Source: Cliona cf. orientalis (lineage: Eukaryota; Porifera; Demospongiae; Clionaida; Clionaidae). Taken from it: a stretch of 64,000 nucleotides of DNA. The number at the start of each line of letters is the position of its first letter. Position 1 is the stretch's first letter. The stretch covers positions 8,060,001 to 8,124,000 of the forward strand of contig OZ005696.1 of assembly GCA_963930775.1 (NCBI GenBank), given 5' to 3'. This document shows positions 8,112 to 61,584 of the stretch, one piece after another. The notes below the pieces were generated by a model. The model ran no database searches. It was given only the letters and a program-made list of their open reading frames with translations, and had not been told where the DNA came from. The position numbers and the translations under genes are program-made.

Positions 8112-11100
8112 ATGAAGGCACAGGCAGCGGACAGACCATTTCAAGGTATTTCTTACTGCATTTCTCATACGGTGACGGTCACTGAATACAAAATAAAATT
8201 TCTAGTACCAGTATGTGGTTTGTTCGTTTTGATCATAGCGATCACGACCTTCCTGCGCTAAATATTAAACTAGTTGGTCACAACAATGATGAGATTCTCT
8301 GTTTCTCCTCTCCAGCTCCACCTCTCACGTTAGCTAATGTGTTGGATGCTGTGAAGAATGTACGGAGCTGGCGTACACTGGGTCAACATATATTCTCATT
8401 TAAACTGGATGCTGTACTTGTACAGCAACGGCACGTCTCTGACAAGGCTCGCCTTAAGGATGTGGTTGAACTCTTTCTCAGTGGCAAAGGTCACTACAAG
8501 CAGCCGTCATGGAGGGCACTAATCTGGTCTCTATACAAGGCAAATGAAACCCAGCTCGCAGATAATATCAGAAGCTATGCTGAACCAGTGCAAGGTAGAT
8601 GTGGGGAGCTACATATGCATGACAGTGATTTATATATATTGGTGCTAGGCCTACATGTGTGCTATACAATAATACAATGTCATGTATGCTGAATTTACAG
8701 TATACGTAATATATTTTGATGTTTTAGAGCCCACTCTGACTGTGGTGAATGTAGTTGGAGTGATGCAGAATGTGGCAGTGGACAGTAGGAAGAAGGTGTG
8801 GTCTTTGGGGGGTATTGTTCCAGACCCACAACTAGAGGAGATTTATCAGAAGTATTCTACTGAGGAGCAGAGGATACATGCATGTGCAGACATCTATGTC
8901 AATTGCCGCCCTGACTCTTCATGGACACATCTTTGCCGAGAACTGTATGAATGGAATGGGATGACTGCAGCGAAGAAAGCAAAGACTTTCATACCACAAA
9001 CTGGTGAGTGGTATAGAGCGAGGGGTTTGAAACTACCCTGAAATCTCGTACAGCACTTCAGAAATCATTGGAAATCTTAGCTGAAATCTTGAAACCTCAC
9101 AAATCTGAAATCTTGAAAATAGATCCGAGTGTCCGTATATCCTTGTATATTTCCACTTTTGCGTTCATCGCGTGCGCGCACCACACCCCCCAGAAGGGTG
9201 TGGCTAGCAAGACTACCCCCGAACTACTAACTAGCAACCGAGTGCTCAAACGCTGGAGACTCCGAGTGTGCTAAAAGCTAGCTAGCTAGCTATACACCTC
9301 TCTGTAATAGATTAGTTTGATGATACATTGTATTTCCAGATGGTAAGCAATCAAAATATCATAGGCCTAGCTACTTGAAATCTTATGTGAAATCTTGAAA
9401 TCCCAACGAAAATCCGGAAATCTCAAGCAAAATCTCGGGATTTCGAAATCTCGTACATTTTTTGGGTGTGTTTCGAACCCCTCGGTATAGAGTCAGTAAA
9501 TGGCTTGTTCTGAGGACTGATACCATTACCGTAGATCATGAATCCTTTTTGGATGACGACCTTTACCATATGTTATTTGTGTGGGCCAACAAGTGATTAA
9601 TGAAGTAATATTGTTATTTGGTAGGCTGTCGTAGTATTGTTGCTTATGCTGTGGAGCCTGTGATGCGTCATAGATATTATAGACTACGTAAACGGGATTA
9701 AAAACTGCTCACGTGAGCAATAAAACGTGTACGCGCACTCCGTGTTATGGTTTGCATTCTTGGATAGACCTGTTGCTATGACAATTTGAGCAAAAAATGG
9801 CCAAAAATGGTGTATGTTGCTGTAATTTTATAGTATGGGCAAGTGATAAAATGGGGGGTAGGGGGGCTGAAGCCCCCCTACCCCCCTATTTCTCCGCCCC
9901 TGAAATTTGCGCTGAGGGTTTTGCCCTATTGTGCTTCATTTGTGTGTGCATCAACTACACTATGTGCACCCATCATTTTTTCTTTGCTAGTTTGTTCACT
10001 GAGACTCTCTTTCTATTCAGAACTATTGTTGCTAAGTCAGAACTGCTTGCAATGCATGTAGACTTTTAGCCAATCAGGTGGGATGTATAATAGTTATAGC
10101 ATGATTGCCAGGGATCTACGGCAACGTATTAAAACCACTCTTGTCCTTAGGCTACGTCCTCAGACTTGGGTCGATTTACTGCCTAGTCTGGCAGGCCAGC
10201 CCCTTCACAAGAAGGAGGAGGAAGGGTCTGGTATCATGCCTATACGGGAGTTGTACCTGCTGCAGCCAGGAGTGCAGCCCAATCAGATTGCTCCACGTCA
10301 TCACCAATATTATGAGGCTGTCCCAAACACCAATCAGGTGCCAGATCTTAGTCAATAATTTGTTGGGACTGTCCCTACCATTCGCTCTGACCGACCAGGT
10401 ACTAGATCTTCACAAGTGCGGTTTTGCATAACAGTAAGCGCTGGAACAACTCGCGTATAGGCATGACACCAGACCTTTCCTCCTCCCTCTTGTGAAGGGG
10501 CTGGCCCGCCAGACTATTTACTGCCCTGGTCCCGTACCATCAGAAACACTCTCAGAGAGTCGAAATTTCCAAGAGCTACACACTACTAATCTTGAAATGA
10601 AGCCATCACTGTCTCTTTCATCGATTGAGAGCTCATCAAGAAGCGAAGAAGGCCATGGTGATCAGCAAATGTCGCCAGAACTTCTGAACGAAGTGTTTTA
10701 AGGCTGCCCTTGCACCTCCTTGATACCAAGTTTTATGGCTGCTGAATCGGCACCACCAGAAGATGATGGTAGCTCTGTCGCTTCTTCTAGCCAAATCTTG
10801 CTTCTTGGACTTTGTGGGACTGTAGCGTAGACCAGAGAGACTTCGGAAATTCAACTTTGCTGGCCACATTTAGAGTAAGGACTCCTTCACTGGAATTAGC
10901 CTTATTCAAGTTCGAAACTACTGTTATTCGCTGCTATTAGTCGATAAGTGCACTGCAGTAGAGAAGGGAGAGAGGGGGTGGGGATTGCGGGATTCTACAA
11001 TAATAATAATTATGATGTCATAGTATGAATAATTACGATATACACATGTGCATGTGTGCTGATTTCAGGTGGCATGACTAGTCGTCTGCGGACAATGCCC

Positions 11101-14100
11101 ATCACCTCTCCCTCTCCCACCCCAGGCAGCACCCAGCACGTGCTTGGGACCAACAGCGGTGGATTCGTCGCAGGAGTTCGAGCAGCCTACACTGCCAACC
11201 ACCCTTACTCTGTAGTACCCATAAGCACCACGGCTCCGTACTGGGGGAGTGGAGTTGGCGTGCCATATTCCACGACTGGTGTGGCACCGACCAGCAGCTA
11301 TGGAGGAGGTGTTCCTAATCAGGGTGGATATGTTGGAGGGCGTGGCATGCAGCAGAGACCAATGTCATCTGGTCAAGGACAGTCAGGTCAGTTATCCGTA
11401 AAACTAATCTTCAAACGGACAAAGCGTGGATACAAAGTCATTATGCAAGTACATGTACTATGTACACTTCTACTCAAAAGCACTCTGTAAGGTACATGTA
11501 CATGTAATCCATCTCTCTCTCTCTCTCTGACACAGTATTTGGAGGGAACACTCAAGCTAGTCACATGTACGGCTCATCGTCTCCTCAGCTTCCGCACCAG
11601 CAGCAGTTCCAACAATTTCTTCCTTACACGAGGACTGAATCTTCATCATCTGGATATGGCTCTGGAGGTATGGGGGGAGGATTTGTGTGTGTGGAGGGTG
11701 TGTTTGAGAGAGAGAGGGAGAGAGGGAGGGAAGAGAGAGGGAGGGAGGGAGAAAGAGAGAGAAAGGGAGGGAGAGAAGTTACTGTAGAATGATTGTACAT
11801 GTGCTTTGAACTAGTAACGAATATTATATTTTTCATACGATGACAGTCAATGAATACTTTTCTAGTACCAGTATGTGATTTGATCATGGCGATCGTGACT
11901 TTCCTGTACTTATAAACTAGTTGATCAATGATACTTCTCTCCTCTCTAGCTCCACCTCTCACGTTAGCTAATGTATTGGATGTTGTGAAGAATGTACGGA
12001 GCTGGCGTACTCTGGGTGAACATATATGTTCCTATTTCTCATCTGATCTGGGTTATATAGAGCTACAGCACGTCTCTGGCGAGGCTTGCCTTAAAGCTGT
12101 GATTGAAGACTTTCTCAATGGCAAAAGTCGCTACAGGCCACCATCATGGAGGGCAGTAATCTGGTCTCTATACAAGGCAAATGAGATCCAGCTCGCAGAT
12201 AATATCAGAAGCTTTGCTAAACCAGTGCAAGGTAGATATGGGGAGCTACGTATGCATGACAGTGATTAATTGTAGAGGATACCATACTGAACATGGTGCT
12301 AACTATACTAGGCCTACAGATGTGCTATACTATAATACATGTATGCTGGATTTACAGTATGCATAACATATTTGATATTTCAGAGCCCAGTCTGACTGTG
12401 GAAAATGTAGTTGGAGTGATGGAGAAGGTGGCAGTGGAGAGAAGGAAAGGGGTGTGGTCTTTGGGGTGTATTGTTCCAGATCCACAGCTAGGGAAGATTT
12501 ATCAGATGAATTCTACTGAGGAGCAGAGGATACATGCATGTGTGGACATCTACGTCAACTGCTGCCCTGACTCTTCATGGTCAGACCTTTGCCAGAGACT
12601 GTATAAAGAGAATGAGATGACTGCAGCGAAGAAAGCAAAGACTTTTATACCACAAACTGGTGAGTGGTATAGAATCAGTAAATGCTGAGGACTGATGACA
12701 TTACCATAAAATTAATAATCTGTGGATGATGACCTTTACCATATGTGACCTCCACAACATATATATTGCGCTGGATATCAATCTAAGATACAGGCCTAGT
12801 TAGTTGTCCAAGGTTGCGTGAATTTCGCGATTTGACTTCTGATCACGAAAATTTTCCTCACAAAAATAGTTGGTGTGGCTACGTTCTGTGTGCACATACG
12901 CATCACAAGCGCGATCGTACGTACGTGTACGCATGCGATACTAGTGAACATGTGAACTATCTGAAATGAACTATTGAATTGCTGCAAACAATGTACAGAC
13001 TCTGTACGCTTACTTTCAGAAAATGAGCAAAAGTTGCCTACCAAATCTGCAAGGACCTTTGTTCAAACAATATCCTTCGTCTTGTATCAAATCTGCCAAC
13101 AACCACGTTGAAGAGATGACCAAACAGACGACAGCAGAAGGCACTAAAGGCAGAAAGAGAGGCCTGCATAAGTCTTGTCTAGTTTCGTTTCTCTTCACAC
13201 TAGCATGCATTGTACTAGCCTAACGCCGAGCCATGTGCAATTATGGGCGGAGCAACAACATGAATTGTCCGCATAGATACATAGATACCACAGTGCAGTG
13301 GTAATCACGAAAAAAATGTGGCGATCACGAAATTTTTATCACGAAAATTTTCAGTCATGGGATTTTCAGCAATTTCACGAAAATTTGGAGCTATACAGTA
13401 TTCACTGCCACTAAATAGTGCTGGTTAGTGATAGTGCTTTCGCTCTGGCAAAACTTCCAAAACTATTCTAATTGCAGATCTTAGGTGCCCTTTGATCTGC
13501 TCACGAATATTTTGGTTGTAATTGGAGGCGCCCTTGTGATCTGTACTTATTTTTTAGCGGCGCCTATATCAGAAAGTATATGGGTACCTTGGTTTTGAGT
13601 CACGAAGTCTACTCGAGTCTACTACCCAGAACAGCATGGCAGGTATGCAGCCAGTTACAGCAGTGCCAAGCACACTAATTATCAGTAGCTAGGCTCTCCT
13701 CAGTTTTGACATCCTTGAGAATAGAGTTGTTGCTATGCAAGATCACGCACAAATAAATGTAATATACATGTATATACACCGCTTCCGGTTTCTTGTGTTT
13801 TCGGGGCTTGCTCAGGCTCGTCCCAAATTTAATTTTGGTAGGGTATCATAGCATTGTTGCTTTTGCTGTGGAGCCTGCATGTGATGTTTTTAGAGTGTAT
13901 TTGCAGTGTTTTTCCTGGTGTACTTGAAAGATAGTGGTCTTTGGTATGGTTTTTTCTTTGATGTGGGAAGGGGGCAGGGCCAAGACTTGGATGTGATTGC
14001 AGGCTTCATTCAAGCCACACCCTAGCCTCCCAATATGCCTGACATTTGCCTCATACCCAGGTCCTTTCCCCTAGCTCTCGAGGGCCTGGGTATAAGGCTA

Positions 14101-17100
14101 GCCTGACACTTGTATACCGTATGACTGGAAATTTCGAAGGAGCCAATTTTCGCGGTTGACTGGCGATCCACGAAATTAAATCGAAAGCCTAAACGCATGT
14201 TCTCACGACGTCGACACACGCATGCACGCATGTTGGCGCGATAATAGGGGGTGTGGCCATCGCGGTGCATGCCGTTGCTGGATTGATCTAACAGCTGGTT
14301 TATTTCATACCAGTTCATTGTTGTTGAGGTTCAGCATACCAAATTTCCTCAATTATCTGCGACTCTCGTGCCATTCACAACTTTCGACTGGTGCTAATGA
14401 GCTTTGAGCCACGGTGCATGTGTAGTAAGAGGCAGAGTCTAATGGATATTATGGGTGGAGCAACTCTGGAACATCTATTTGCGAAAATTAGATCGCGAAA
14501 TCTTTGAAGATGGTCCGTCTGTGAAAATTGGATCCCTCGAAAATTTCCGGCCATACAGTAGTCACCAAATTTGTGAGAAGAGAGCCACAGTCAAAACATA
14601 TAATATTATAGTGCTCACAAAGCACTTCCAAATTTTTTTAAGCATGCCCACTTTGATTGGCCAGACCTACTATTTTGGCGACCATGCTCCTTTTCCTACT
14701 AACATGCCTACTAAATATCAAGATACATGTATGCAGACCAAAATGTTAATGCTTGTGCCACACCCCCATTTGTGCAATCAAGCTGTATTCTTGGACATTT
14801 CTACGAAATCAGGCAATCCAGGACACAACCAGGTCATAGGGCCAAATTCCAGTATTGTCCTGGCCATAGAATCGAGAGCTAAAAAGCTATGCACTTGTGC
14901 TTGGGGAGGACAATAATAGTGTAGGTATTGTTTTACCTGTATACTCCCTTACTCCCTCAGAGCCCACTCTGACTGTGGAGAATGTAGCTGGAGTGATGGA
15001 GAAGGTGGCAGTGGAGAGAAGGAAGGAGGTGTGGTCTGATGGGCATATTGTTCAAGACTCACAGATAAAAAAGATTTATCAGAAGTATTCTACTGGGGAG
15101 CAGAGGATACATGCATGTGCAGACATCTATGTCAGTTGCCGCCCTGACTCTTCATGGACACATCTTTGCAAGGGACTGTATTGGCAGAATGAGGTAACTG
15201 CAGCGAAGAAAGCAAAGACTTTCATACCGCAAACTGGTGAGAGAATAGTGGTACATGTATAATATATTATGCATGGTTACAGTGCAGGATGATGATAGTA
15301 ATCAAATAACAATCCATCTGCATATGGGGAGAAAGGCTAGGCATAAGATTAAGTTTTGATGTCTGTCAGGCCCGTACTCAGCCTTTCTCAGGGGGGGGGG
15401 GGGAGAAGCGTGTCTCAAATTATGGCTGCAGTTATGCTGTGGGCATTAGCCCACAGTCCATCTAGGGGTCTGGGGGCACAAAAGTTTGGAAATTTAGATT
15501 CTTTGAGGGTGATTCTGAGGCATTCTGACAGTCATGCATTATCACTGAATTTTGCCACCTTCACCTTGAGTAAATACCCTCTACAATACCTACAATACTA
15601 CCGTATCCTCCCGAAAATAAGCCCCCCCCCCTTTTTCAGCAGTAGACATGACCTAGACTGGGTAGGGGGCTTATTTTCGAATATGCACTTTCCCTCGAAT
15701 ATAAGCCCCCCTTAGCCACCATCGTTGATCACGTACCGCGGGAAATATCCAGAGTTTGCTTGTCTTTTCTCCAAAAGAGCGGCAACGAGATGACCAGTCA
15801 AGTAGACGGCAACACGAGGATCGGCGGTGGGAATGGCTCGTAAGTATCTTCGCCAAGCTAGAAGTGCCATCATAACAGAATGACTTCAAAACAGACTTTT
15901 CTAAAAGCCAGCACCATCTTTGTACTCGTAGTCAATTGAAGGGCGGGGTTATGTACGTACATGTACGTACGTGCTCGCGCGCGTGTATATGTGCAATCTA
16001 TCTACTTGGTGAGAGGGGGGCTTATAATCGAGGCAAACATACCTGTGCAAGAACTTGAAGATCAAAGAGGGGAGGGGGCTTATTTTCGGGAGGATACGGT
16101 ACTACCATAGAATCCCACAATTACGCGCCCCCCCCCCCCCCCCATCACGAATAAGCCCTCCTGCATGTTTAGCTCAAGTTCCTGCATAGGTAGTTTTGTC
16201 TCGTGTATAAGCCCCCCCCCCCCTCCCTGACTGTAAAATGTAGGTATTAGAGTCCATAAGCCAATAAAAACAGCAACTACAGCTACTAAACTAGCTATTT
16301 GTGTCATATAGTATGCCTTACTTTGTCAAGTTTTGCCCATCAAACAGCCAGAGAAACTACAGAGATCGCGTGCCCATGTGGCATTTGACAGTCGGTAATG
16401 TAACAAGATCCCGCAAATAAGCCCCCTCCCCACTTTTGCCCAATGCTAGCATGCACGAAGGCGGGGTGTAATCGCAGGATTCTATGGTACTACTAGCTAG
16501 TTCTGTACTGCATTGTATATCCAGTATGCGTTAACTATTTGGAAAGCAACAGCTTAGCTGTGCAAAGAAGCATGTAAGTTACACCTAGATTGTTCCAATA
16601 CTATGCTCAATGGTCAAAATAGAGGGGTTCGTCCGAATCCTCCCCCCCCTTCCGTGTATGGGCCTATCTATGAATGCAATTATCCCCCTCCAGACCCCAC
16701 TCTGACTGTTGAGAATTTATTTGGAGTGATGGAGAAGGTGACTGATGATAGGGCTAAGGAGGTTTGGGGGTGGCTGATCTACAGCACTGTGTTGGAGGAT
16801 ATCAGTAGCAAGTGCTCCACAGAGAGGGAGCTGGTCAATACATGTGCAGACATCTATGTCAACTGTAAACTTGACTCCAGCTGGGAGGGGGTTGCCCTTG
16901 GACTGTACCGTGAGGAGGAGACAGCTGCAGTGGAGGAAGTACGATCCTATCTCAATCCTAGAGGTAGGTTCTCTCAGTGGGTGTGGTTTGTGGTACTGTA
17001 TGGCTGGTAATTTTTGTGGGGTGCTAAGTTTTATTATTGTCGTGGTTGACTTGGCAGTCACAAAATTTCCACCTACGAAAATTAATGCCTACGGTAGATA

Positions 17101-20100
17101 CAATGTACGTGAGTACCGTATAGCCGGAAATATTAGCGGGAATTAAATTTGGCAGTTGAGCCCAAAATAGCTATTACAAGAATAATATTATTAGCAGATT
17201 TAAATTTGGCGGTTCAGTACGGGATCACCATATGTATATATATATGTGGATGGTGCACATACTCAAAACATGATTAATGTAGTCCCTTATCAATCTAACA
17301 ACTGTTGATTATGGCATTATCCATGCTTCTTGATACAGATCTCACACTCACCACTGAGCGTCTAGTGAAGCTGTTTGCATCAATGAGTAATAAGTATGTT
17401 GATCGTGTACGTTACTCCCTTGATACTCCATCATCCAAGAAAGAGGAATTTGAGATGAACTACCAGAACCCTACCCGGAGGAAAGAGGCTTATTTGGACT
17501 ACTATGCCCACAACCATCCAGCAGCATCTTGGACAAAGATTGCTGGAGCACTTCGTTGGTGTGAACTACCTAAACAGGCTGCTATGGTTGAGAACACCTA
17601 CATTCAAGGTAAATAATATTATTATACCTATCAATGTCTAGATTCAAGAATGGTTAACAATCCTCAAATTTGGTAAAGGTCATCACTGTTGACCTGCCAT
17701 GTACATGTATAGTGATGAAGTTCTGATATTATGTATGAAAACATTAGGAAGTACCACACAATAGTTAGATGTTGGTTTTGCATATTTTCGCTGCAAGTAG
17801 AATTGCACAACCTGTTTTGGTAGCAGTCACTACAGACCTGTTAATATACTAATGACCCTTTTTCACCTCTGGGTGAGGTGCTCCCCCCTCCCTGGACAGG
17901 CTACTATAATATCTTCCATGCTTTTACTTTGTCGTATTCAACAGACACTATCAGACAACTGTTACCATAATACTAGGGTGATGTAAATCATCGAGGGGGC
18001 GAGCCTTAGTATAGTCTAGAGGGGGAGGATTAGGATGCCCCCTCTACTATCTTCAATCCATAGTACATGTACAAGTAGCTATCTATCGTTCAGCTGATTT
18101 AATCTATTTTGTAACGATCAAGGAACAAGGAGTACGGTTAACAGTTGTGTACCATGGCATGTATGCTTCATTCCCAGTATGTCGGGAGCTTTCGTCCCTA
18201 TGTGGTTACTTGGACTTAGTAGTATTTAATATTGTTAGATCATAGTCCTAGCACTCAGACTATATCCCTTCAAGTTTGCTATAGATACTCAGTGGCGTTC
18301 CTAGGATTTGAGGGAGGGGGTGCTGAGACATTTGCGCGCAAAGTGCGCACGCAAAATTTTTAGCCACACCCCCAAAAGTTGACCACACCCCTAATTAAAC
18401 GCATTCTTGAAGGTAGCTGGCTGACAAAGAAGGCTGTTTTAGGCCAAATAGCGACTAGAAACTGCTGTTTTGGGAGCGAATTTTAGAGACCAGTAAGGTT
18501 ATTGTTGGTAGTAGCTGCCAGTCATCGATTATCAGTAACAATATATATTTATCACTGAGCTACTGAACTGGCTGTTGTGCCGGAGCTGATGGGGGTGCTC
18601 CAGCACCCTGAGCACCCCCGGGTATGCCACTGGATAATACATAATAGATTTTTGAGACGTAGGACACACCCAGTTAGTTGAATTATTAAGCCGACCTACC
18701 AACTCTATCCTGAGGAAAGGCCAGCCCAAGAAACAGAACAATAAATTGAAGTGGTCTTAACACGCGGTCAATGTTGACTATCTTTGCCACAATAATTATA
18801 TGCATGTGCTGCTATGATATAGCGAGCATGTGGATGATGTATCGCCACATGCATACATATATAATACATATACATAAGTACAGCGGTTTCTCATAGTACT
18901 GATTCTCACTCAGGCTCGCCCCAATTTTACATGTAGGTATTTGATCACGGTTGTTGTAGCAACAGCACAAACGGACATAAAATAAATGTTACGGTCTAAT
19001 AATTTAGCCCAACACCCATGTACCACATTAAAGGGGGCAGTGTGTCGACTTTCATCCATTCTGTGTGCATGGGGTGAAGTGATCACTTAGTTCCCTCACT
19101 TGTCCTCCATGGCATTACTATTAAAAACAGCTTAGAAGACAGTTAAAAATTCATCTTATCCCAAAATTTGGCCAAAAATCTAAGAAAGCATTCTCTATGA
19201 TAGTTTAAACTTTGACCTTTCCAGTTCATAGTGGGTTTGGCTCAAATTTGGGGCATGCTTTGCACATGCATACTTTACCTAACCTCCTTGCTATGCCACT
19301 GGCCCACTTTGCACTTATTAAAAAAATAGGCGCTTAATAAGCATGTGCACTTATTAACCAGACTTTACAGTATTCATAGCTCACTACTATGCACGTAACC
19401 CACTTCTAATCCACATCAGGATGTGGGTTACAACATACCGTACTTGCTCTAATTATCCGAACGGCCAAAAATAATTATTAATATCGCCGTTCGGTGTTAA
19501 ATAGAAAGTAAATAAATTCGGGCAATGGCTTGTTCGAGTGTAAATAGAACGGATCCAGTGCAAATGGAGAAAGCACTATTATAGCGACAAAGAAACAGCA
19601 GTCGATGTCCAACTATAGGTTTATCGTTGTCAGCTCTAGAGTTCTCAGTATCGCTGTGCTCTCAGGAGCGATCGCAAAATGATCTCCGTCTGTGTCTGTA
19701 TTACCTTTCCGCTCTTATATGCTGTCCAAGATGAACGTGGAAGAGTTGTCTCGAGCTCCTGCCATGCCGTACCACGTGGCCGTTCGGTTGATTTAGAGCG
19801 GATGAGAAAACTTGAAATTCAAGATGTTCGACGAATTAGGAAGGAAATAAATTACTTAAACTTGCTGTTTGGGCTATTAGAATGTTCGAATAATTAGAGC
19901 GAGTACGGTAGATTATAATCTATGGTTATAACACAGGTTAACTAATTCGGTTTACAAATGGATTAACACGTTTACACGTAAGCGAGTTAGTTTAATGCGG
20001 ATCCTAACTCAAGTTTAGCCCTACGTGTAAACCCAAATGGGGCTTATGTGCATGCACGTACACATGCATATGATTGTGTATGTGGATGTCTATATACCAG

Positions 20101-22666
20101 GAAAGATGCTTGGTTATAGAACAAGAGAAAGAAGGTATAGAGATGAACGTAAAGATTATTCCTTCTTAAATACAGTAGAGGATGGCTAATGTTATTATTG
20201 TAGCTAGCCTGATAGATACGAATGTTGTAGTTAATAGGTGTCATGCTGTTTATAGTGAGTGAAAGAACAAGACTCAATTTCGAGGCTGCCATGAAGGATG
20301 GAGCAGTAAGGATACGAAATGGTAGCACTTTCTTCATGGGTCCTGGCGGGTCTGGAAAGACCCACACACTTCTTGCCCTTCTTGAAGAAGATCCTCCAGC
20401 AATACGAGAAAGCACTGCATGTGCAGAGAAGCCCATTAGAGCAGTAGCCCAATTCAAGCTTGGAGTGAGGGGTACAGCTCACTTCATCAGAATAACCGAC
20501 GACCACTATTCAGAGATGCTGGCGAATTCAGCTGAAAAGTATCCCATGAGTATTGCTCCCACTGTAGCTTCCCTACCACTTGGTACTAAAGTACCTATTA
20601 CTCCACCCTCTAGTTCATCTCTTGAGATGCCAGAAGCACTTTTAAATTCTAGTTCACCAGAAACAGCACAAATAGCGGCCAAGGATACCAGTGTCGAGGG
20701 TCCACTACCTGTAGCTAAATTTGGTCTGAAACAAGAGCTACAGTGTCGGATGCAAGCCAAGTCGAAAACATCAGAGCAACTCCATGACAAGGATCTGATG
20801 GATGTCAAGGATTCAGCAGGCCAGCCGATGTTTCACGAAGTCCTCCCTGCTTTTGTCACCAATACCATGTTTGGTATACTTGTAGTGAAGCTCAATGAGT
20901 CATTAGACAGCCGTCCACTAGTGGAATACTACATCAACGGTAGCCACATAGGAGAGCCGTTCCATTCACCCTTCACACACCTGGAGACCCTTCGTCACTG
21001 TTTGAGGGTCTTGCAATCAACCTGTAAACCAGATACGTGTCCAAACATTATATTTGTTGGCACTCATAAGGATCTCAAACATGAGTGTCAGCACGAGGAT
21101 AGGAAGGAGAAAAATCGAAAGCTTCAGAGCATCATCCCTCCAGAGATGAAGGACAACATCATCTACAATGGGAAATCACTGCTATTTGCTATTAATGCCA
21201 AAGCTCCTGGAAATGGTGATCGTAAGATGATGGGTGATTTGAGGCTATTGATGATCAAAGAGCTACAGAAGCTACCAAAGATGAAGATTCCACTTCGATA
21301 CTTCTCACTTGAAAATGCCTTCCAACGACTCGCAAAGTATCAACGAAAAGCCATACTGAGTATTGATGAATGTCTGAAGGAAGCCACAGCCTACCACTTC
21401 ACAAGGGAGTCACTCGATGACGTGCTACAATACCTTCACAACCTCAAGCTCATCATGTACTACAAAGACATCCTTCCAGATGTGGTGTTTATCGATGCCC
21501 AAATTCTTCTTGACAAGATAACCGAACTTGTGGTGTACAGCATAGAGTTGCGAGCAAAAGCAGCTGAGGATGTGAAATTACAAGCAAATTCTGATAGTCA
21601 GGTAGTGGTTGGTGGGAGTCTTGAGAAGTTCAAAACCTGTGGCATTGTAACTACAGAGATTTTATCAAAGTTTAGCACTGGCTATGTCCCAGGTCTGTTT
21701 GAAGGAGAGCATCTCATTCTTCTTTTTAAGAAGCTTCTGATTGTAGCTGAAATTGGAAAAGGAAAATACCTAATGCCATGTCTTCTAGAGACAGAGGAAG
21801 TCAAACTTCTTTCTAGTTCAGTCATTCCTGCCTTTCTTTTCTACTTTGGTAAAAATGGTCCCAAGCTAGGAGTCTACTGCTTTCTCCTTGCCTCTCTCAT
21901 CACTGATGCCAAGTGGGAGCTTCTCATGGAGGACAACAGCCCTGTCCAACTCTCACGCAACAGAGTTCGGTTTGCTGTTCCTGGAAACAATCCAGGATGC
22001 ATCACCATCACTGATTCCTTCTCAACATTCTTCCATGTCAGCATTGAATTTCCAGAGGACATCACTGAAGAACAGGCACTCAAGGTCTGCAAGGAAGTTT
22101 GCCCATCGATTCGAGAAGAAATATTCGCCAGCATTCGTAAAGCATCTAGCAAGCTAAATTACAATAATTCCATTCCAGAAGCAGCTTTTCTTTGCTCAAA
22201 GCATGATGAATCTACCACTCTACATCCAGCAGTCATATCTAGGACTGGACTCTTGACCTGCACCACCCATCCTCGATCAATCTTTGGTCAACTGACTGAC
22301 AAACACAAGATTTGGCTAGGAGAAGCAGCAGAGTTACCAACTTCTGGTGGTGCCTACGCTTGTGATCCAGTGGCCGGAAAACTTAGTATCAAGGACCTTT
22401 CTAAGGTACAAAGGGCAGCTTGGGATGCAAGATCAAAGTGGTGTAATATCGGTCTGGAGCTGAATATCGATCCAGGAACATTGGACGTTATTGAACGAAA
22501 TAACATGGACATTAACGATCGATTTCGAATCATGCTCACGACTTGGCTGAGGACGGTCGACCCTAGACCAACATGGGGAGCATTAGCCGAAGCACTTCGA
22601 TCACCCACCGTTGGGTGTGAAGAACTCGCTGAACATTGTAATACTATGTTGCTTCCAAAAAAATGA
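8112..22666 (+). CDS. Death-domain-array ROCO-type GTPase, gene 1
   Basis: Multi-exon gene. Exon 1 (8112-8145) encodes an 11-residue start, MKAQAADRPFQ, ending in phase 1. Phase 1-1 death-domain exons follow at 8316-8594, 8728-9003, 11950-12231, 12384-12659, 14961-15236, 16694-16963 and 17339-17608. The terminal exon 20256-22666 encodes the Roc-like GTPase, the COR-like region and a last death domain. The predicted protein is about 1,460 residues, or about 1,610 if the two Gly/Ser-rich exons at 11069-11667 are included. The start was chosen because the same ATG exon precedes all three paralogues. Death domains make homotypic contacts in apoptosis and NF-kB signalling, and DAPK1 combines Roc-COR with a death domain. 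A run of seven N-terminal death domains on a ROCO protein is not an architecture I recognise. A signalling role is inferred. Confidence 0.82.
8316..8594 (+). CDS. Death-domain exon alpha-1 (gene 1)
   Basis: Phase 1-1 exon of 279 nt between CTCTCCAG and GTAGAT. It shows death-fold features: a leucine-rich first helix (LTLANVLDAVKNV), WRTLG, and SWRALIWSLYKAN before the last helix. The 8-residue block after the W is one residue shorter than in the other alpha copies. Confidence 0.82.
8728..9003 (+). CDS. Death-domain exon beta-1 (gene 1)
   Basis: Phase 1-1 exon of 276 nt. Features: PTLTVVNVVGVMQNV, a central EEQRIHACADIYVNC helix and SWTHLCRELYEWNGM. The helix pattern fits a death domain. A hAT-like element sits 15 bp into the following intron. 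Confidence 0.82.
9019..9484. mobile_element. hAT-like non-autonomous element with 8-bp target duplication
   Basis: A 466-bp insertion flanked by GTATAGAG at 9011-9018 and 9485-9492. The inverted ends are CGAGGGGTTTGAAAC and its near-complement. The interior is rich in GAAATCTTGAAATCT-like units. Paralogous introns after other beta exons have a single undisturbed GTATAGAG (for example after 56260), so the empty site is visible. An 8-bp duplication is typical of hAT transposons. Confidence 0.85.
9493..11068 (+). other. Intron region with hairpin and fold-back repeats, no assignable gene
   Basis: The first 200 bp match the normal downstream flank of a beta exon. A near-perfect G/C hairpin follows (9853-9886), then a fold-back element (10184-10518). 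Two open stretches (10083-10358 and 10492-10701, the latter Ser/Glu-rich) have no recognisable domain and may be remnants of inserted sequence. Confidence 0.5.
10184..10518. repeat. Fold-back inverted repeat (about 72-bp arms)
   Basis: The arm at 10184-10255 (containing GGCCAGCCCCTTCACAAGA) is complementary, with few mismatches, to 10443-10518. The spacer is about 185 bp. It is probably a MITE or fold-back transposon. No clear target duplication was found. Confidence 0.65.
11069..11386 (+). CDS. Orphan Gly/Ser/Thr/Pro-rich exon, phase 1-1
   Basis: Flanked by a good acceptor (GATTTCAG) and donor (GTCAGT). Open for 106 codons in the frame compatible with the neighbouring death-domain exons. 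The product is low-complexity (PITSPSPTPGS, GGGVPNQGGYVGGRGMQQ). I recognise no family. It has no counterpart in genes 2 or 3, so it was probably inserted with, or trapped in, the extra alpha-beta duplication of gene 1. Whether it is spliced into the gene 1 transcript is unknown. Confidence 0.5.
11536..11667 (+). CDS. Second orphan Gln/Ser-rich exon, phase 1-1
   Basis: Follows a CT-rich tract and CACAG acceptor, ends at GTATGG. 44 codons, Ser/Gln/Tyr-rich (PQLPHQQQFQQFLPY). Also phase 1-1, so it can join the previous exon and the next death-domain exon without a frame change. It probably comes from the same unidentified source gene as 11069-11386. Confidence 0.45.
11668..11785 (+). repeat. 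GA-rich simple repeat
   Basis: GAGAGAGAGG/GGGAGGGA tract downstream of the orphan exon. A CT tract also lies just upstream at 11511-11528. No gene. Confidence 0.8.
11950..12231 (+). CDS. Death-domain exon alpha-2 (gene 1)
   Basis: Phase 1-1, 282 nt. LTLANVLDVVKNVRSWRTLG near the start, SWRAVIWSLYKANEIQLADN near the end. Very similar to alpha-1, including flanking intron sequence, so the alpha-beta pair was duplicated as a block within gene 1. Confidence 0.82.
12384..12659 (+). CDS. Death-domain exon beta-2 (gene 1)
   Basis: Phase 1-1, 276 nt. PSLTVENVVGVMEKVAVERR, EEQRIHACVDIYVNC, SWSDLCQRLYKENEM. Closely related to beta-1 and open throughout. Confidence 0.82.
12660..14960 (+). other. Long intron of gene 1 with repeats
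   Basis: Holds sequences rich in TCACGAAAATTTT on both strands (12830-12860, 13320-13390), which look like ends of a degenerate MITE, and a 442-bp MITE at 14117-14558. A short CTCAGGCTCGTCCCAA stretch near 13810 matches ends of the elements at 61097-61113 and 62608-63199. The last 300 bp match the intron before the second beta exon of genes 2 and 3. No gene was found. Confidence 0.6.
14117..14558. mobile_element. 442-bp TA-flanked MITE
   Basis: Ends CCGTATGACTGGAAATTTCG and its near-complement (AATTTCCGGCCATACAG) pair as inverted repeats, with TA on both sides. Interior non-coding. Confidence 0.7.
14961..15236 (+). CDS. Death-domain exon beta-3 (gene 1)
   Basis: Phase 1-1, 276 nt, after a CCCTCAG acceptor. 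PTLTVENVAGVMEKVAVERR, GEQRIHACADIYVSC, SWTHLCKGLYWQNEV. Its upstream intron matches that of the second beta exon in genes 2 (31108) and 3 (57097), so it is the orthologous position. Confidence 0.82.
15601..16099. mobile_element. 499-bp TA-flanked MITE (CCGTATCCTCCCGAAAATAA ends)
   Basis: Near-perfect 26-bp terminal inverted repeats beginning CCGTATCCTCCCGAAAATAA, with TA flanks at 15599-15600 and 16100-16101. Additional internal copies of the GGGGGCTTATTTTCG motif lie near 15665. Non-coding. Confidence 0.85.
16105..16487. mobile_element. 383-bp TA-flanked MITE (CCATAGAATCC ends)
   Basis: Ends CCATAGAATCCCACAATTAC and its near-complement, TA flanks at 16103-16104 and 16488-16489. Inserted 5 bp from the preceding MITE. 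Another full copy, inverted, lies at 35902-36259 and a half copy at about 49010-49138. Confidence 0.85.
16694..16963 (+). CDS. Death-domain exon gamma (gene 1)
   Basis: Phase 1-1, 270 nt. PTLTVENLFGVMEKVTDDRA, a conserved CSTERELVNTCADIYVNC segment and SSWEGVALGLYREEETAA. More divergent from beta than the beta copies are from each other. Confidence 0.8.
17339..17608 (+). CDS. Death-domain exon delta (gene 1)
   Basis: Phase 1-1, 270 nt. LTLTTERLVKLFASM, EFEMNYQNPTRRKEAYLDYY, ASWTKIAGALRWCELPKQAA. This is the most divergent subtype. It ends in ATTCAAG and joins the terminal exon with a codon split after its first base. Confidence 0.8.
18290..18632. mobile_element. 343-bp hAT-like MITE (CAGTGGCGTTCC ends)
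   Basis: Starts CAGTGGCGTTCCTAGG and ends with GGTATGCCACTG, giving imperfect inverted ends of the kind seen in hAT MITEs. I could not find a clean 8-bp duplication. Confidence 0.6.
19438..19908. mobile_element. 471-bp TA-flanked MITE
   Basis: Inverted ends CCGTACTTGCTCTAATTATC and its near-complement, with TA at 19436-19437 and 19909-19910. Contains an 'ATTTAGAGCGG' region and a chance ORF. Confidence 0.75.
20256..22666 (+). CDS. Terminal exon of gene 1: Roc-like GTPase, COR-like region, death domain
   Basis: Single 2.4-kb exon entered in phase 1 (TATAG acceptor), stop TGA, about 802 residues. G1 P-loop GPGGSGKT is at residues 29-36 of the exon. A Ser/Pro-rich insertion follows, then the G3-like DSAGQ at about 186 and the G4-like THKD at about 270. 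The COR-like region has the motif YLHNLKLIMYYKD, followed by FIDAQILLDKITELV. A helical C-terminus (WDARSKWCNIGLEL, TTWLRTVDPRPTWGALAEAL) reads as a death domain. Gap G1-G3 is about 150 residues, longer than usual. A matching AATAAA lies at 22738. About nine in ten residues match the gene 2 exon by eye. Confidence 0.85.
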
Positions 22667-25304: not shown

Positions 25305-25380
25305 TTTGTGTCTCTCTCTTTCTCTCTCCCTCTCTCTCTTCCCTTTCTCTCTCTGCCCCCCTCCCTCTCTCTCTGTATAT
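25305..25380. repeat. CT-rich simple repeat in DNAJC16 intron
   Basis: CTCTCTCT/CCCTCTCT tract on the + strand. A second tract lies at 25690-25765. Both have counterparts in copy 2 (40700-40742 and 41040-41082), so they predate the duplication. Confidence 0.85.
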
Positions 25381-28385: not shown

Positions 28386-28500
28386 ATTTGTTGGTAGTTG
28401 CTTAGCAACCAAAGTTTTTATAGGCAATTTGCCGGCTATGGGAAGGGGTTGGGTCGTCATAAAGTAGGCCAATGATGAACAAAGGTCAACTACCAACAAA
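28386..28500. mobile_element. 115-bp MITE-like inverted repeat
   Basis: TTTGTTGGTAGTTG at the left end pairs with CAACTACCAACAAA at the right end. It lies in the exon-18/19 intron of XRN1 remnant B and is absent from copies A and C. Confidence 0.55.
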
Positions 28501-28506
28501 ATCATG

Positions 28507-29431: not shown

Positions 29432-32400
29432 ATGGAGGCACAGGCAGCGGACAGACAACTTCAAGGTACATTTCTCAAACGGTGACGGTCACTGAATACA
29501 AAAGTAAATTTTCTAGTACCAGTATGTGATTTGTTCGTTTTGATCATCGCGATCATGGAGCTTCCTGCGCTAAAATTTTAATAGTAGTTGGTCAACATAT
29601 TTTTTGTCTTTCTCCTCTCCAGCTCCACCTCTCATATTAGACAACATATTTAATGTTGTGAAGAATGTACGGAGCTGGCGTACTCTGGGTAAACATATAT
29701 ATTCCTATTACTCATCTAACCTGAATGACATACAGCGACGGCATGTCTCTGATGAGGCTCGCCTTAAAGCTGTGATTGAAGACTTTCTCAGTGGTGAAGG
29801 TCGCTACAAGCAGCCATCATGGAGGGCACTAATCTGGTCTCTATACAGGGCAAATGAGACCCAGCTCGCAGATAATATCAGAAGCTATGCTGAACCAGTG
29901 CAAGGTAGATGTGGGGAGCTACTTATGCATGACAGTGATTATATATAGAGGACACATGGTGCTAGGCCTACAGATGTGCTATACTATAATACATGTATGC
30001 TAAATTTACAGTATACATAATATATTTTGATGTTTTAGAGCCCACTCTGACTGTGGAGAATGTAGTTGGAGTGATGGAGAAGGTGGCAGTGGAGAGAAGG
30101 AAGTGGGTGTGGTCTAGAGGGTATATTGTTCCAGACCCACAGCTAAAGGAGATTTATCAGAAGTATTCTACTGAGGAGCAGAGGATACATGCATGTGCAG
30201 ACACCTTTATCAACTGCCGCCCTGACTCTTCATGGACACATCTTCACGAGGGACTGTATTGGGGGAATGAGATGACTGCAGTGAGGAAAGCAAAGACTTT
30301 TATGCCACAAACTGGTAAGGGGTGTAGAGTCAGCAAATGGCTTGTTCTAAGGACTGATGCCATTACCGTAGATAATGAATTGTTTGTGGATGACGACCTT
30401 CACCACATGTTGTGTGTATGGGCCAATGAGTGATTAATGAAGTAGTAATATTTGGTAGGCTGTCATAGTATTGCTGCTTATGCTGTGGAGCCTGTGATGC
30501 GTTTAGAGTGTATTTGCCATCATAATTGGTGTTTATTTGAAGGATAGTGACTGTATATGCCTTACAGGGTTTCATTGCTACAGTCCTCGCCTCCTTAACT
30601 CCACAATTGTCATGTTTGCTCCCCCCTCGACGAAAATCCTAAATGAAACCCTGCCTTTGGTACTGTTTTTTCGAAAGCTTTGAAGTAATTGTAGGCTTTA
30701 CATAAGCCACACCTTAGCCTCCCAGTATGGCTGACACTTGCATAGTTGCCAAATTTCTGAGAAGAGAGCCCCGGACGAATAAAAATTCACATCTTGCACA
30801 TAAAATATTTGGAGCGTACCTACTTTGATTGGCCAAATCTACTGCTTTGGCGACCATGCTAATATTCCTACTAGCACACCCACTAAATGTCAAGATACAT
30901 GCATACAGACCAAAACTGGATTTGTGCAATTGAGCTGTATTCCAGGATATTCAGGCAATCCTGGACACAACTGGCCCAGGTCATAGGGCCAAATTCCAGA
31001 ATTGTCCTGGCCATAGAATTAAGAGCTAAATAGCTATGCACTTGTGCTTGTGGAGGACAATAATAGTGTAGGTATTGTTTTGCCTGTGTACTCCCTTACT
31101 CCCTCAGAGCCCACTCTGACTGTGGAGAATGTAGTTGGAGTGATGGAGAAGGTGGCAGTGGAGAGAAGGAAGGAGGCGTGGTCTAGGGGGGATATTATTC
31201 CATCCTCACAACGAGTGGAGATTTATCACACGTATTCTACTGAGGAGCAGAGGATACATGCATATGCAGACTTCTATGTCAACTGCCTCCCTCACTCTTC
31301 ATGGACACTTCTTTGCTGGGGACTGTATGGGAAGAATGAAATGACTGCAGCAAGGAAAGCAAAGACTTTCATACCACAAACTGGTGAGTGGTATAGAATC
31401 AGTAAATGGCTTGTTCTGATGACTGATTCCATTATTGTAAATCAGTCATGTAATTTTGTATGGGCTAATGAGTGATTCATGTCTCTCACATTAACTTCTA
31501 ACATAAACATAATAAGAGTAGGTATCATGGTATAATTGCTTATGCTGTGAAGCCTATAAGGGTTAGAGTGTATCGGTGTTTACTCCGGTATCACGGTACT
31601 TAAAGGATAGTGGCCATATATGCCTTTGGTACCGTTTTTTTCTTTGATGTGGGAAGGAGGCAGGGCCAAAGCTTTGTGTTATAAAATTTGTTGCATTTAT
31701 GTATGCAATTATTCCCCTCCAGAACCCACTATGACTGTTGAGAATTTACTTAGAGTGATGGAGAAGGTGACTAATGGTAGGGCTGAGGAGGTTTGGAGGA
31801 GGCTGATCGACAGGACTATATTGAAGGATATCAGTAGCAAGTGCTCCACAGAGAGGGAGCTGGTCAATACATATGCAGACATCTATGTCAACTGTGACCC
31901 TTACTCCAGCTGGGAAGGGGTTGCCCGTCTACTGTACGATGTGGAGGAGACAGCTGCAGTGGAGGAAGTACGATCCTATCTCAATCCTAGAGGTAGAGTC
32001 TCTCAGTGGGTGTGATATGTGGCTGATAATTTTCATGGGGTGATAATTTTCATTATTTTTGTGGTGGGATCGCCATATGTATACGTGCGAGTAGGAAATT
32101 TTGCCGAATTTTAATTTGGCAGTTGTAATATAGACTGCCAAACCGTCAACTTTGCCGGTTATATGTATGGTAATGATAAAGGAAATCAAGCGAGATTGAG
32201 AGCACGTATTCATTACATCACACAAACTGCACCCCTGACTTCCCATGAAAACTAACCCCCCCCCCCCCCCAAAATTACCTGCCATACGGTATAATATAGT
32301 TCCCACATTCTTTATTTTAAGAATGGAAATTAATTTTAGAACATTATCATCAGCCACAACCACCAACCATTTTTTTTGAACACATACCTTATAGAGATTC

Positions 32401-41043: not shown

Positions 41044-41083
<40 letters not shown>

Positions 41084-48334: not shown

Positions 48335-48407
48335 GCTTGCCGGGGACTGTATGGGTGGAATGAGATGACTGCAGCGAAGAAAGCAAAGACTTTCACACCA
48401 CAAACTG
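48335..48407 (+). pseudogene. Death-domain beta exon fragment
   Basis: The last 73 nt of a beta exon (GGLYGWNEMTAAKKAKTF-like) with its normal donor, fused directly to XRN1 exon-19 debris. The downstream intron is conserved to about 48660. A deletion has removed everything between XRN1 exon 19 and the end of this beta exon. Confidence 0.8.
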
Positions 48408-48664
48408 GTGAGTGGTATAGAGTCAGTAAATGGCTTGTTCTGCCATTAGCGTAGATCAGGAATCGTTTGTGATGACGACCTTTACCACATGTTATTTGTA
48501 TGGGCCAATGAGCAACTAATGAAATAGTAGTATTTGGTAGGCTGTCGTAGTATTGTTGCTTATGCTGTGGAGCCTGTGATGTGTTTAGAGTGTATTTGCC
48601 ATCATAACTGATGTTTATCCTAGTGTACTTGAACGATAGTGGCCATATATGCTCTCAGAGTTTC

Positions 48665-55365: not shown

Positions 55366-58300
55366 ATGGAGGCACAGGCATCGGACAGACAATTTCAAGG
55401 TATTTCTTACTGCATTTTCTCTTTAATACAATGACGGTCACTGAATACAAAGTAAATTTTCTAGTATCAGTATGTGGTTGATTCGTTTTGATCATCGCGA
55501 TCATGACATTCCTGCGCTAAAATTAATTTTACTAGTTGGTCAGCATAATTTTTGTCTTTCTCCTCTCCAGCTCCACCTCTCATATTAGACAACATATTTA
55601 ATGTTGTGAAGAATTTACGGAGCTGGCGTACACTGGGTCAACGTATATATTTCTATTCCCCATCTGAACTGGATGACATACAGCGACGGCATGCCTCTGA
55701 TGAGGCTTGCCTTAAAGCTGTGATTGAACTCTTTCTCAGTGGCCAAGGTCGCTATGAGCAGCCATCGTGGAGGGCAGTAATCTGGTCTCTATACCATGTA
55801 AATGAGACCCAGCTCGCAGATAATATCAGAAGCTATGCTGAACCAGTGCAAGGTAGATAAGAGGAGCTATGTATGTATGACAGTGATTGTAAAGGACACA
55901 TGGTGCTAGGCCTACAGGTGTGCTATACAATAATATGTGTATGCTGAGAATTAACAGTATACATAATATATTTTGATGTTTTAGATCCCAGTCTGACTGT
56001 GGAGAATGTAGTTGAAGTAATGGAGAAGGTGGCAGTGGAGAGAAGGAAGGAGGTGTGGTCTTGGGTGGATATTGTTCCAGGCCCACAGCTAGAGGAGATT
56101 TATCAGAAGTATTCTACTGAGGAGCAGAGGATACATGCATGTGCAGACATCTATGTCAACTGCCACCCTGACTCTTCATGGACACATCTTTGCCAGGGAC
56201 TGTATAGGAGGAATGAGATGACCGCAGCGAGGAAAGCAAAGACTTTTATACCACAAACTGGTGAGGGGTATAGAGTCAGTAAATGGCTTATTCTGAGGAC
56301 TGATGCCATTACTGTACATGTAGATCATGAATCGGCCGTAGATGACAACCTTTACCACATAATACTTATTAGACCAATGAGTGATTAATATTAAATTTTA
56401 GTAGGCTATCGTAGCATTGCTGCTTATGCTGTAGAGCCTGTAATGTGTTTAGAGTGTATTTGCCATCATATTAATTTTAGTGTTACTCCGGTGTACTTGA
56501 AGGATAGTGGCCGTATATGCCTCTTAGGTTTCATTACTACAGTCCTTGCCCCCCTTAACTCCACAATTATCACGTTTGCTCCCCCCTTGACGGAAATCCT
56601 AAATGAAACCCTGCCTTTGGTACTGTTTTTTCTTTGATGTGGGAAGGGGGCAGGGCCGAAAGCTTTGATGTGATTATAGGCTTTACTCAAGCCACACCCT
56701 AGCCACCCAGTATGGCTGACACTTGCATAGTTGCCAAAGTTATGAAAAGAGAGTCCTGGACAAAATAAAAATGCACATCTTGTGTACAAAGCATATGCAA
56801 ATTTTTGAAGTGCACCTACTTTGATTGGCCTGATTTATACTATTTTGGCGATTATGCTAATATATTCGTACTAAGACACCCACTAAATGTCAAGATATAC
56901 GACCAAAACTGGCTAGTATACTGAATTCATGCATATGCCAATATTCAGGCAATCCAGGACACAACCGGGTCATAGGACCAAATTCCAGAATTGTCCTGGC
57001 CATAGAATTAAGAGCTAAAAAGCTATGCACTTGTGCTTGGGGAGGACAATAATAGTGTAGGTATTGTTTTACCTGTATACTCCCTCACTCCCTCAGAGCC
57101 CACTCTGACTGTGGAGAATGTAGCTGGAGTGATGGAGAAGGTGGCAGTGGAGAGAAGGGAGGAGGTGTGGTCTGAATTGGATATTATTCCAGACTCACAA
57201 CTAGAGAAGAAGTGTTCTACTGAGGAGCAGAGGATACATGCATGTGCAGACATCTATGTCAATTGCCACCCTGACTCTTCATGGACACGTCTTTGCCAGG
57301 GACTGTATTGGAGGAATGAGATGACTGCAGCGAGGAAAACAAAGACTTTCATACCACAAACTGGTATGGGGTATAGAGTCAGTAAATGGCTTGTTCTGAG
57401 GACTGATGCCATTATTGTAAATAATTTTGTATGGGCCAATTACTGATTCATGTCTCTCATGTTAACTTCTAATATAAACATAATATTATCTGATAGGGTA
57501 TCATAGTATTTGTTGCTTATGCTGCGAAGCCTGCATGCAAATGCATTTAGAATGTATCGGTGTTTACTTTGGTGTACTTAAAGGATAGTGGCCATATATG
57601 CCTTTGGTACTGTTTGATATAGGAAGGGGGCAGGGCCAAAGATTTATGATATGATTGCAGGCTTTACTGAAACATGCATAACATAAATTTTATTACGTCT
57701 ATGTATGTAATTATTCCCCTCCAGAACCCACTTTGACAATTGAGAATTTACTTAGAGTGATGGAGAAGATGACTGGTGGTAGGGCTGGGGAGGTTTGCTG
57801 GTGGCTGATTGATGAAGATATGTTGGGGGATATCAGTAGCAGGTGGTCCACAGAGAGAGAGCTGGTCAATATATGTGTAGACATCTTTGTCAACTGTAAC
57901 CCTAACTCCAGCTGGGAATGGGTTGCCAGCCTACTGTACCGTGAGGGGGAGACAGCTGCAGTGGAGGAAGTACGATCCTATCTCAGTCCTAGAGGTAGGT
58001 TCTCTTAGTGTGTGTGGTTTATGGTACTGTATGGCTAGTAATTTTTGTGGGGTGCTAATTACCCCGCGCGCATGCGCAAGGGGATAAAGTAATCGTTTGT
58101 GTCGTCGTTGTCATTGTCGTTGTTGTCGTTAGCACAAAAATCGCCAAATCTCGAGATGTAGGCGTCTAAGCGACTCGTAATCACAATGAATCAATCGAAT
58201 TCGGCGAAAAACTGGCTTCAGTATGCGTCAAATCGAGGGATACGGTCCACGAGCGTCACAAATAGTGCCTTTTTGTTGGCCACCGTAGCCACGCCTATCG

Positions 58301-61300: not shown

Positions 61301-61584
61301 GCTTCCTGATACAGACCTCACACTAACCACTGAGCGTCTAGTGGAGCTGTTTACATCAACGAGTGATAGGAATGTTGATCTTATGGGTGCCTGCCTTGAC
61401 ACTCCATCATCCAAGAGTGTGGAATTCAAGATGAACTACCAGAACCCTGCTCAGAGGAAGGAGGCTTATTTGGACTACTATATTCACAACCATCCATTAG
61501 CATCTTGGACAAAGATTGCTCGAGCTCTTCATAGGTGTAGACTACCCCAACAGGCTGCTGTGGTTGAGAACACCTACATTCAAG
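55366..61584 (+). CDS. Death-domain-array ROCO-type GTPase, gene 3 (3' end outside window)
   Basis: ATG exon 55366-55399 (MEAQASDRQFQ, ends phase 1), then phase 1-1 death-domain exons 55571-55852, 55985-56260, 57097-57363, 57725-57994 and 61315-61584. Order alpha-beta-beta-gamma-delta as in gene 2. All are open; 57097-57363 has an in-frame 9-nt deletion. The Roc-COR exon is not in the window: in genes 1 and 2 it starts 2.65-2.76 kb after the delta exon, which predicts about 64.2-64.4 kb here. Whether the gene is complete therefore cannot be judged. Confidence 0.8.
55571..55852 (+). CDS. Death-domain exon alpha (gene 3)
   Basis: Phase 1-1, 282 nt. NIFNVVKNLRSWRTLG, SWRAVIWSLYHVNETQLADN. Open. 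Confidence 0.82.
55985..56260 (+). CDS. Death-domain exon beta-1 (gene 3)
   Basis: Phase 1-1, 276 nt. PSLTVENVVEVMEKVAVERR, EEQRIHACADIYVNC, SWTHLCQGLYRRNEM. Open. Confidence 0.82.
57097..57363 (+). CDS. Death-domain exon beta-2 (gene 3)
   Basis: Phase 1-1, 267 nt, 9 nt shorter than other beta exons (three codons lost before CSTEEQ). PTLTVENVAGVMEKVAVERR, SWTRLCQGLYWRNEM. The donor is GTATGG. Confidence 0.8.
57725..57994 (+). CDS. Death-domain exon gamma (gene 3)
   Basis: Phase 1-1, 270 nt. PTLTIENLLRVMEKMTGGRA, WSTERELVNICVDIFVNC, SSWEWVASLLYREGETAA. Open. Confidence 0.8.
58062..58713. mobile_element. 652-bp TIR element (CCCCGCGCGC ends)
   Basis: Inverted ends CCCCGCGCGCA and its complement, TA on both sides (58060-58061 and 58714-58715). 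Partial copy at 48665-48867. Non-coding. Confidence 0.75.
58292..58409 (+). repeat. 59-bp perfect tandem duplication
   Basis: The unit CGCCTATCGACAGTGCCCAT... at 58292-58350 is repeated exactly at 58351-58409, inside the TIR element. Likely recent. Confidence 0.85.
60560..61113. mobile_element. Truncated copy of the GGGGCGAGCCTGAG element
   Basis: Matches about 62680-63199 (TCGGTCACACGAAA, AGCGCGAAATATTC, CAGCTACTGACAGAGACTTT) and ends with CTCAGGCTCGCCCCAA. Its left end is missing. Confidence 0.65.
61315..61584 (+). CDS. Death-domain exon delta (gene 3)
   Basis: Phase 1-1, 270 nt. LTLTTERLVELFTST, EFKMNYQNPAQRKEAYLDYY, ASWTKIARALHRCRLPQQAA. Open. Confidence 0.8.

Follow-up and report, generated by a model that had tools for sequence, protein, structure and literature searches.

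We analyzed a 64,000-nucleotide (nt) stretch of the genome of the sponge Cliona cf. orientalis (C8:8060001-8124000, contig OZ005696.1; hereafter the window) and searched the 216.8-Mb genome, in 149 contigs, for relatives of its genes. The window holds three neighboring genes, A, B, and C, each of which is predicted to combine an N-terminal array of death-fold exons with one terminal exon (the core exon) encoding a Roc-like GTPase, a COR region, and a C-terminal death domain. Two long open frames (20231-22666 and 36271-38751), each preceded by many short repeated frames, contain the core exons of genes A and B, and the core of gene C was found as an open exon in the flanking DNA past the window end, at about 66883-69290 (window-equivalent; locus L009). 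Exon ends were fixed by comparing the three copies, which gave the following features (window coordinates):

8112..8145, + strand: gene A exon 1, with ATG, MKAQAADRPFQ, and a phase-1 donor
8316..8594, + strand: gene A array unit 1, alpha, with AG acceptor and GT donor, both phase 1
8728..9003, + strand: gene A array unit 2, beta
11950..12231, + strand: gene A array unit 3, alpha
12384..12659, + strand: gene A array unit 4, beta
14961..15236, + strand: gene A array unit 5, beta, the unit modeled with AlphaFold2
16694..16963, + strand: gene A array unit 6, gamma
17339..17608, + strand: gene A array unit 7, delta
20256..22666, + strand: gene A terminal exon, with predicted Roc-like GTPase, COR, and C-terminal death domain
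29432..29465, + strand: gene B exon 1, MEAQAADRQLQ
29623..29904, + strand: gene B array unit 1, alpha
30039..30314, + strand: gene B array unit 2, beta
31108..31383, + strand: gene B array unit 3, beta
31723..31992, + strand: gene B array unit 4, gamma
33326..33595, + strand: gene B array unit 5, delta
36359..38751, + strand: gene B terminal exon, predicted Roc-COR-death
55366..55399, + strand: gene C exon 1, MEAQASDRQFQ
55571..55852, + strand: gene C array unit 1, alpha
55985..56260, + strand: gene C array unit 2, beta
57097..57363, + strand: gene C array unit 3, beta
57725..57994, + strand: gene C array unit 4, gamma
61315..61584, + strand: gene C array unit 5, delta, with the core exon beyond the window

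As modeled from sequence, genes A, B, and C are all complete, with array exons followed by one Roc/COR/death-domain exon. The original prediction had recognized two complete copies, which holds for A and B in the window; C proved to be complete as well, its core lying just past the window end. The span that it proposed (8112..61584) coincides with the ATG of gene A exon 1 and the last base of the gene C delta exon, and its count of five to seven N-terminal death domains agrees with the seven array units of A and the five each of B and C. The unit order is alpha-beta-alpha-beta-beta-gamma-delta in A and alpha-beta-beta-gamma-delta in B and C, A having one additional alpha-beta pair. Exon 1 (34 nt) carries the ATG and ends in phase 1; all array exons (17/17) are symmetric phase-1 exons of 267-282 nt, with lengths divisible by three, AG followed by two codon bases at the start, and one codon base followed by GT at the end; and the core exon has a phase-1 acceptor (TTTAYAG). 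All introns of the three genes are therefore in phase 1, so that the reading frame survives the gain, loss, or shuffling of modules. The spliced proteins comprise 1457 (A), 1266 (B), and 1268 (C) residues, the terminal stop being the sole stop in each. Because exon 1, the splice sites, and the phase are common to the three copies and B and C have the same unit order, the arrangement is more than chance. Between genes B and C, the only array match was an isolated beta-type exon fragment (window 48338-48445; 75-80% identical), presumably a relic or a stray exon copy.

The array units were hardly seen by the Pfam Death profile, which matched 3 of the 19 modules scanned (17 array units plus 2 core death domains) at E up to 10, the best at 3.5e-05. 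The AlphaFold2 model of gene A unit 5 (beta) had a predicted local distance difference test (pLDDT) score of 94.9 and adopted a six-helix death-domain fold (helices at residues 5-12, 17-26, 32-41, 45-59, 65-74, and 78-85), and solved death domains headed its Foldseek matches. Profile-profile comparison of array units to death domains gave moderate probabilities (83-86%), and when array and core profiles were run against Protein Data Bank sequences, nothing informative came back (best E 0.22 and 1.6). The assignment of array units to death folds is supported by the one beta model, by the alignment of the other classes to it, and by the moderate profile-profile scores.

The gene A core matched Pfam COR-A (1.1e-05), Death (0.0011), and Roc (0.033), all below cut-offs. 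Among 19 cores scanned, Roc was matched in 18 (best E 0.011), COR-A in 11 (best 4.5e-07), and Death in 10, and in a genome search with the COR-A profile, 10 of 105 listed cores exceeded the Pfam cut-off (one only with neighbors in frame), as did the distant relative L016 (1.9e-10). A more distant relative lies in the flanking DNA near window-equivalent position -37622. The gene A core contains, in this order, a P-loop, DxxG, THKD, and a G5-like INAK, which we take to serve as the GTPase motifs, and a long, more variable insert separates the first two. The core death domain lies at the expected place after Roc-COR, with Death matches below cut-off (E 0.0011 and 0.0024), and its profile scored 97% probability against those death domains of the same genome that exceed the Pfam cut-off. 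On these profile matches we regard COR as established for the family, and motifs, position, and weak profiles point to a GTPase. No match was found when the gene A core alone was compared with Protein Data Bank sequences, and an NCBIfam scan of three cores gave nothing informative. A prokaryotic origin of the core was considered and dropped, none of 27 matches to two peptide patterns in the genome_contigs collection having been confirmed.

To estimate family size, we combined two core searches (best 56 of 985 and best 56 of 1,249 candidates, with 7 in common), leaving uncounted 6 and 2 further rows that were separate C-terminal pieces of the same genes. There are at least 105 distinct core exons on 13 contigs, 73 of the 105 on C8; these are minimum counts, weighted toward sequences closely related to the two queries. 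The three neighboring copies of the original prediction are real, and its triplication far too small: judged from these searches, A, B, and C are one small cluster of a very large, tandemly expanded family. Array exons were located among the best 150 of 511 delta, 488 beta, and 286 alpha candidates. A delta exon lies upstream on the same strand within 12 kb of 100 of the 105 listed cores (gap 245-8685 nt, median 1304) and upstream on the opposite strand of none (0/105); downstream, a same-strand delta exon was found for 39 of the 105, as tandem neighbors would give. Array strings were compiled over at most 25 kb, stopping at the next core, so that some (e.g., adad) probably span a neighboring gene, and used 127 of the best 150 alpha matches; the 23 left out (E 1.2e-8 or weaker) comprised 22 on C2, C3, C4, C7, and C14 and one short piece of a C8 exon already counted. 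Between 0 and 8 array exons were found per listed core, and alpha came first and delta last in 95 of 102 arrays with two or more exons found. Further exons of close relatives kept a phase-1 AG acceptor and GT donor in 49 of 49 cases (30 beta, 12 delta, and 7 gamma). One array, at C8:7643981-7647687, holds seven beta exons that are much alike and spaced about 560 nt from each other, which looks like a recent exon amplification.

The distance from delta exon to core in the window genes, 2.6 to 5.3 kb, might suggest that the array exons and the Roc-COR exon are separate neighboring genes. We consider this highly improbable and have rejected it: the phase-1 donor at delta and acceptor at the core are conserved, same-strand linkage holds in 100 of the 105 listed cores, and two compact relatives, L096 and L097 (C15; C8:9.56 Mb), bring the parts close together. 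These have a candidate exon 1, alpha, beta (two beta exons in one of them), delta, and core; in both, each junction offers usable phase-1 sites, and the introns that precede the core are short (about 250 and 300 nt). The original prediction had joined arrays and core in one gene, and phase-compatible splice sites, linkage and orientation, compact relatives, COR-A matches, and the fold of the beta unit all speak for that joining.

We then compared variation between array and core. We aligned 37 beta, 10 gamma, and 15 delta exons and saw a conserved framework with a few variable columns, and 13 columns were picked from beta (residues 26, 27, 28, 32, 36, 60, 67, 69, 70, 71, 74, 75, and 82). Amino-acid difference was concentrated at these beta-chosen columns in gamma (0/10,000 permutations) and delta (p = 0.0018), and marginally so in alpha (n = 4, p = 0.052). 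At the 13 columns, the tree-based ratio of nonsynonymous to synonymous substitution rates (dN/dS) was 1.51 in beta (p = 0.018; circular, the columns having been chosen from beta), 2.27 in gamma (p = 0.036), and 1.76 in gamma and delta pooled (p = 0.026), and the remaining beta columns gave 0.69 (below 1 at p = 0.006). The core had a dN/dS of 0.27 (11 close relatives). Pairwise ratios ranged from 0.54 to 4.79 in array exons and 0.26-0.28 in cores, a noisy measure that was not our main test. On the helices of the beta model, the majority of the variable positions fall where helix 2 ends and helix 3 begins, in the helix 4-5 loop, in helix 5, and in the helix 5-6 loop; death-domain assembly interfaces usually use the helix 2-3, helix 5, and helix 5-6 regions. 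These alignments indicate a new finding: variation falls at shared positions in different exon classes, next to a constrained core. Synonymous divergence was about 0.13 in array exons versus 0.335 in cores, with different gene pairs in the two sets, and the lower value may reflect exon exchange. Beta identity was 0.857 within genes versus 0.794 between genes (0/2,000 permutations), and without one seven-copy array the within-gene value was 0.801; the excess identity traces to that one array and does not demonstrate a general homogenization (concerted evolution) of the arrays, a reading that was set aside.

Several results weigh against this picture of a death-domain array diversifying on a constrained Roc-COR core. 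The best Foldseek E-value for the beta unit was 0.04, and the predicted structure of the core (two window sequences) had a pLDDT of only 31.1. Pfam Roc remained under its cut-off in every core scanned, and AAA_22 (11/19) and Ras (9/19, best 9.5e-05) matched cores about as weakly; Microtub_bd also weakly matched 11 of 19. The original prediction had looked to Pfam profiles and structure prediction for confirmation, for which COR-A passed its cut-off in some of the listed cores, Roc in none of those scanned, and Death matched few array units; the beta unit, though not the core, modeled well. Regarding linkage, no delta match lies within 12 kb for 5 of the 105 listed cores, and no listed core accompanies 48 of the 150 listed delta matches. 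One of the latter, on C4, is followed 1.2 kb downstream by a COR-A match, which indicates that some cores are absent from the 105 listed; most C3 and all C18 delta matches are weaker (29-52% identical over part or whole unit) and may belong to other genes. Regarding selection, delta alone was not significant at the 13 columns (dN/dS 1.50, p = 0.12), the remaining columns were not clearly constrained in gamma (0.90) or delta (1.10), and the part of the core that separates the first two GTPase motifs (columns 101-150) is variable as well (0.87). Whole-exon dN/dS of the array was about 1 (1.14, 0.98, and 1.16), and the 95% interval of dN-dS includes 0, so that positive selection rests on site subsets; positive selection on whole array exons was dropped, the intervals including neutrality. 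In addition, the repeat units share a history of duplication, and perhaps of conversion, which makes tree-based counts less secure.

The surroundings of the cluster are repetitive as well. Parts of an Xrn1 exoribonuclease (D2/D3, SH3-like) and a following long open reading frame (ORF) occur in two copies (window 2148-7814 and 49597-55085) upstream of genes A and C, with diverged stretches of this ORF region near 28050-28997, upstream of B. A minus-strand gene, one exon of which has a weak, DNAJC16-like thioredoxin match, follows each of the three cores (23113-27000, 39279-42826, and near 70051-70845 in the L009 region), a layout that would fit a segmental duplication of the entire unit. NACHT genes (E about 1e-22) flank the cluster on both sides (L013:350-3946 and L011:635-2962), and an exon at L010:4771-5121 has a weak Death match (E 0.0012); together, these suggest a wider immune-type neighborhood. 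The NACHT genes and a tyrosine-kinase match also agree with an animal source. Elsewhere, C2:2953036-3002340 (L003, L004, L006, and L008) carries tandem genes with an N-terminal Death domain in open frames 869-894 aa long; of these genes, L003 was scanned, and its Death domain is followed in the same frame by an NTPase with NPHP3_N and weaker STAND-like matches. In the genome-wide COR-A search, 147 of the best 150 matches (290 candidates) were above the Pfam cut-off, a few of them only with neighbors, many in open frames of 1,400-3,100 aa (e.g., C16:872726-952429 and C14:7556943-7652989). By these profile matches, ROCO genes are very numerous in this genome even outside the death-array family.

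The most familiar ROCO proteins are LRRK2 and DAPK1. We found no description of death-domain arrays on Roc-COR in the open literature, subscription papers having been mostly outside the search. DAPK1, a kinase-ANK-Roc-COR-death protein with its death domain C-terminal to Roc-COR, was rightly cited in the original prediction as a known pairing of the two, and is the closest animal relative by core order (PMC6320773). Unlike DAPK1, the present genes have 5-7 N-terminal death-fold exons, form a large tandem family, and lack kinase and ankyrin in their models: neither was matched in the 10 ORFs scanned (shorter intron ORFs lay outside the scan), and spliced A, B, and C start at exon 1 and contain array and core only. 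Brown-algal LRR-ROC-COR genes (LRR, leucine-rich repeat), proposed as immune receptors, have exon-shuffled, diversifying N-terminal arrays, and likewise place one repeat per symmetric exon N-terminal to Roc-COR; however, their repeat is an LRR in 72-bp phase-2 exons, whereas here it is a death domain in phase-1 exons of 267-282 nt, and LRR-ROC-COR was the sole domain combination reported in that study (PMC11378527). The WD, ANK, and TPR repeats of fungal NOD-like receptors (NLRs) resemble the present arrays in strong internal conservation, few variable (there, positively selected) positions, and varying repeat number, but those proteins have an NLR-type nucleotide-binding domain and C-terminal superstructure repeats instead of Roc-COR and N-terminal globular death domains (PMC4986451). 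Prokaryotic AP-GTPase (Roc)-COR conflict systems also have rapidly evolving N-terminal repeats, with LRRs instead of death domains and with variable C-terminal effectors (PMC8195603). In Aplysia, another invertebrate, ROCO is combined with innate-immune, death-fold partners (TIR or MyD88-like) in a handful of genes, with no death-domain array described in the available text; therefore, ROCO in innate-immune combinations is not itself new (PMC9334734). Sponge NLRDs (PMC12909245), Amphimedon TRADD-N proteins with 1-3 death-like domains (PMC8195603), and Apaf-1-like proteins of amphioxus and sea urchin (PMC2246300) are large lineage-specific sets that pair one to three death-fold domains with other modules, but as described there these are NACHT, NB-ARC, or TRADD-N, not Roc-COR, with short death-fold runs at most. 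Also unlike NLRs, the 19 cores scanned had no NACHT, NB-ARC, or LRR among their listed family matches (E up to 1), and the same library finds two nearby NACHT genes at about 1e-22. By analogy, we would describe the family as ROCO proteins that are NLR-like in logic.

We lean, by a small measure, toward the family being intracellular receptors or scaffolds in which a diversifying array sits on a conserved GTPase switch; its architecture is well supported, and its function is what we infer from it. The protein would be an intracellular sensor whose variable array makes contact with a ligand, with an effector from a pathogen, or with the death domain of a partner. Its Roc-COR unit would change state with nucleotide, like other ROCO proteins, and the C-terminal death domain would then nucleate a death-domain assembly leading to cell death or inflammatory signaling. 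A variable array, a conserved switch, and a death-fold output would together amount to NLR logic on a Roc-COR switch, and a scaffold or sensor role in death or immune signaling is plausible from the sequences.

Two other accounts seem unlikely to us, and to a similar degree. The variable positions could form a homotypic specificity code, in which the death domains of each paralogue bind only matching ones, in the same protein or in a dedicated adaptor, and which insulates assemblies or marks self and non-self between individuals; they lie where helices 2 and 3 meet, in helix 5, and in the loop between helices 5 and 6, all parts used in death-domain assembly, which would fit, and many similar paralogues would need insulation. 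Alternatively, the protein could be a signaling scaffold whose array only raises avidity for death-domain adaptors, the variation reflecting relaxed constraint, as might be read from whole-exon dN/dS close to 1 in all three classes tested and from the differing number of array exons found among genes. However, the beta framework outside the variable columns is conserved, splice sites and phase are kept in all the further exons compared, and the beta-defined columns recur in gamma and delta, whereas relaxation does not predict hot spots shared between classes. Because the variable array sits on a constrained core, we think that a sensor or specificity code is more likely than a simple scaffold.

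More tentatively, and with rather less confidence than in the receptor or scaffold reading as such, we suggest that the death domain, otherwise familiar as a signaling adaptor, may serve as the hypervariable recognition repeat of a large, exon-shuffled receptor family on a Roc-COR switch, with units in series, about a dozen variable positions per unit, and a germline repertoire. If so, the repertoire would supply sensors of pathogens, decoys for death-domain-attacking effectors, or labels of self and non-self, and it would become testable how Roc-COR reads an N-terminal array and whether death-domain codes separate parallel assemblies. Roc-COR would then have been recruited as an animal receptor platform on the scale of NLRs, and the death domain itself could be a diversifying module.
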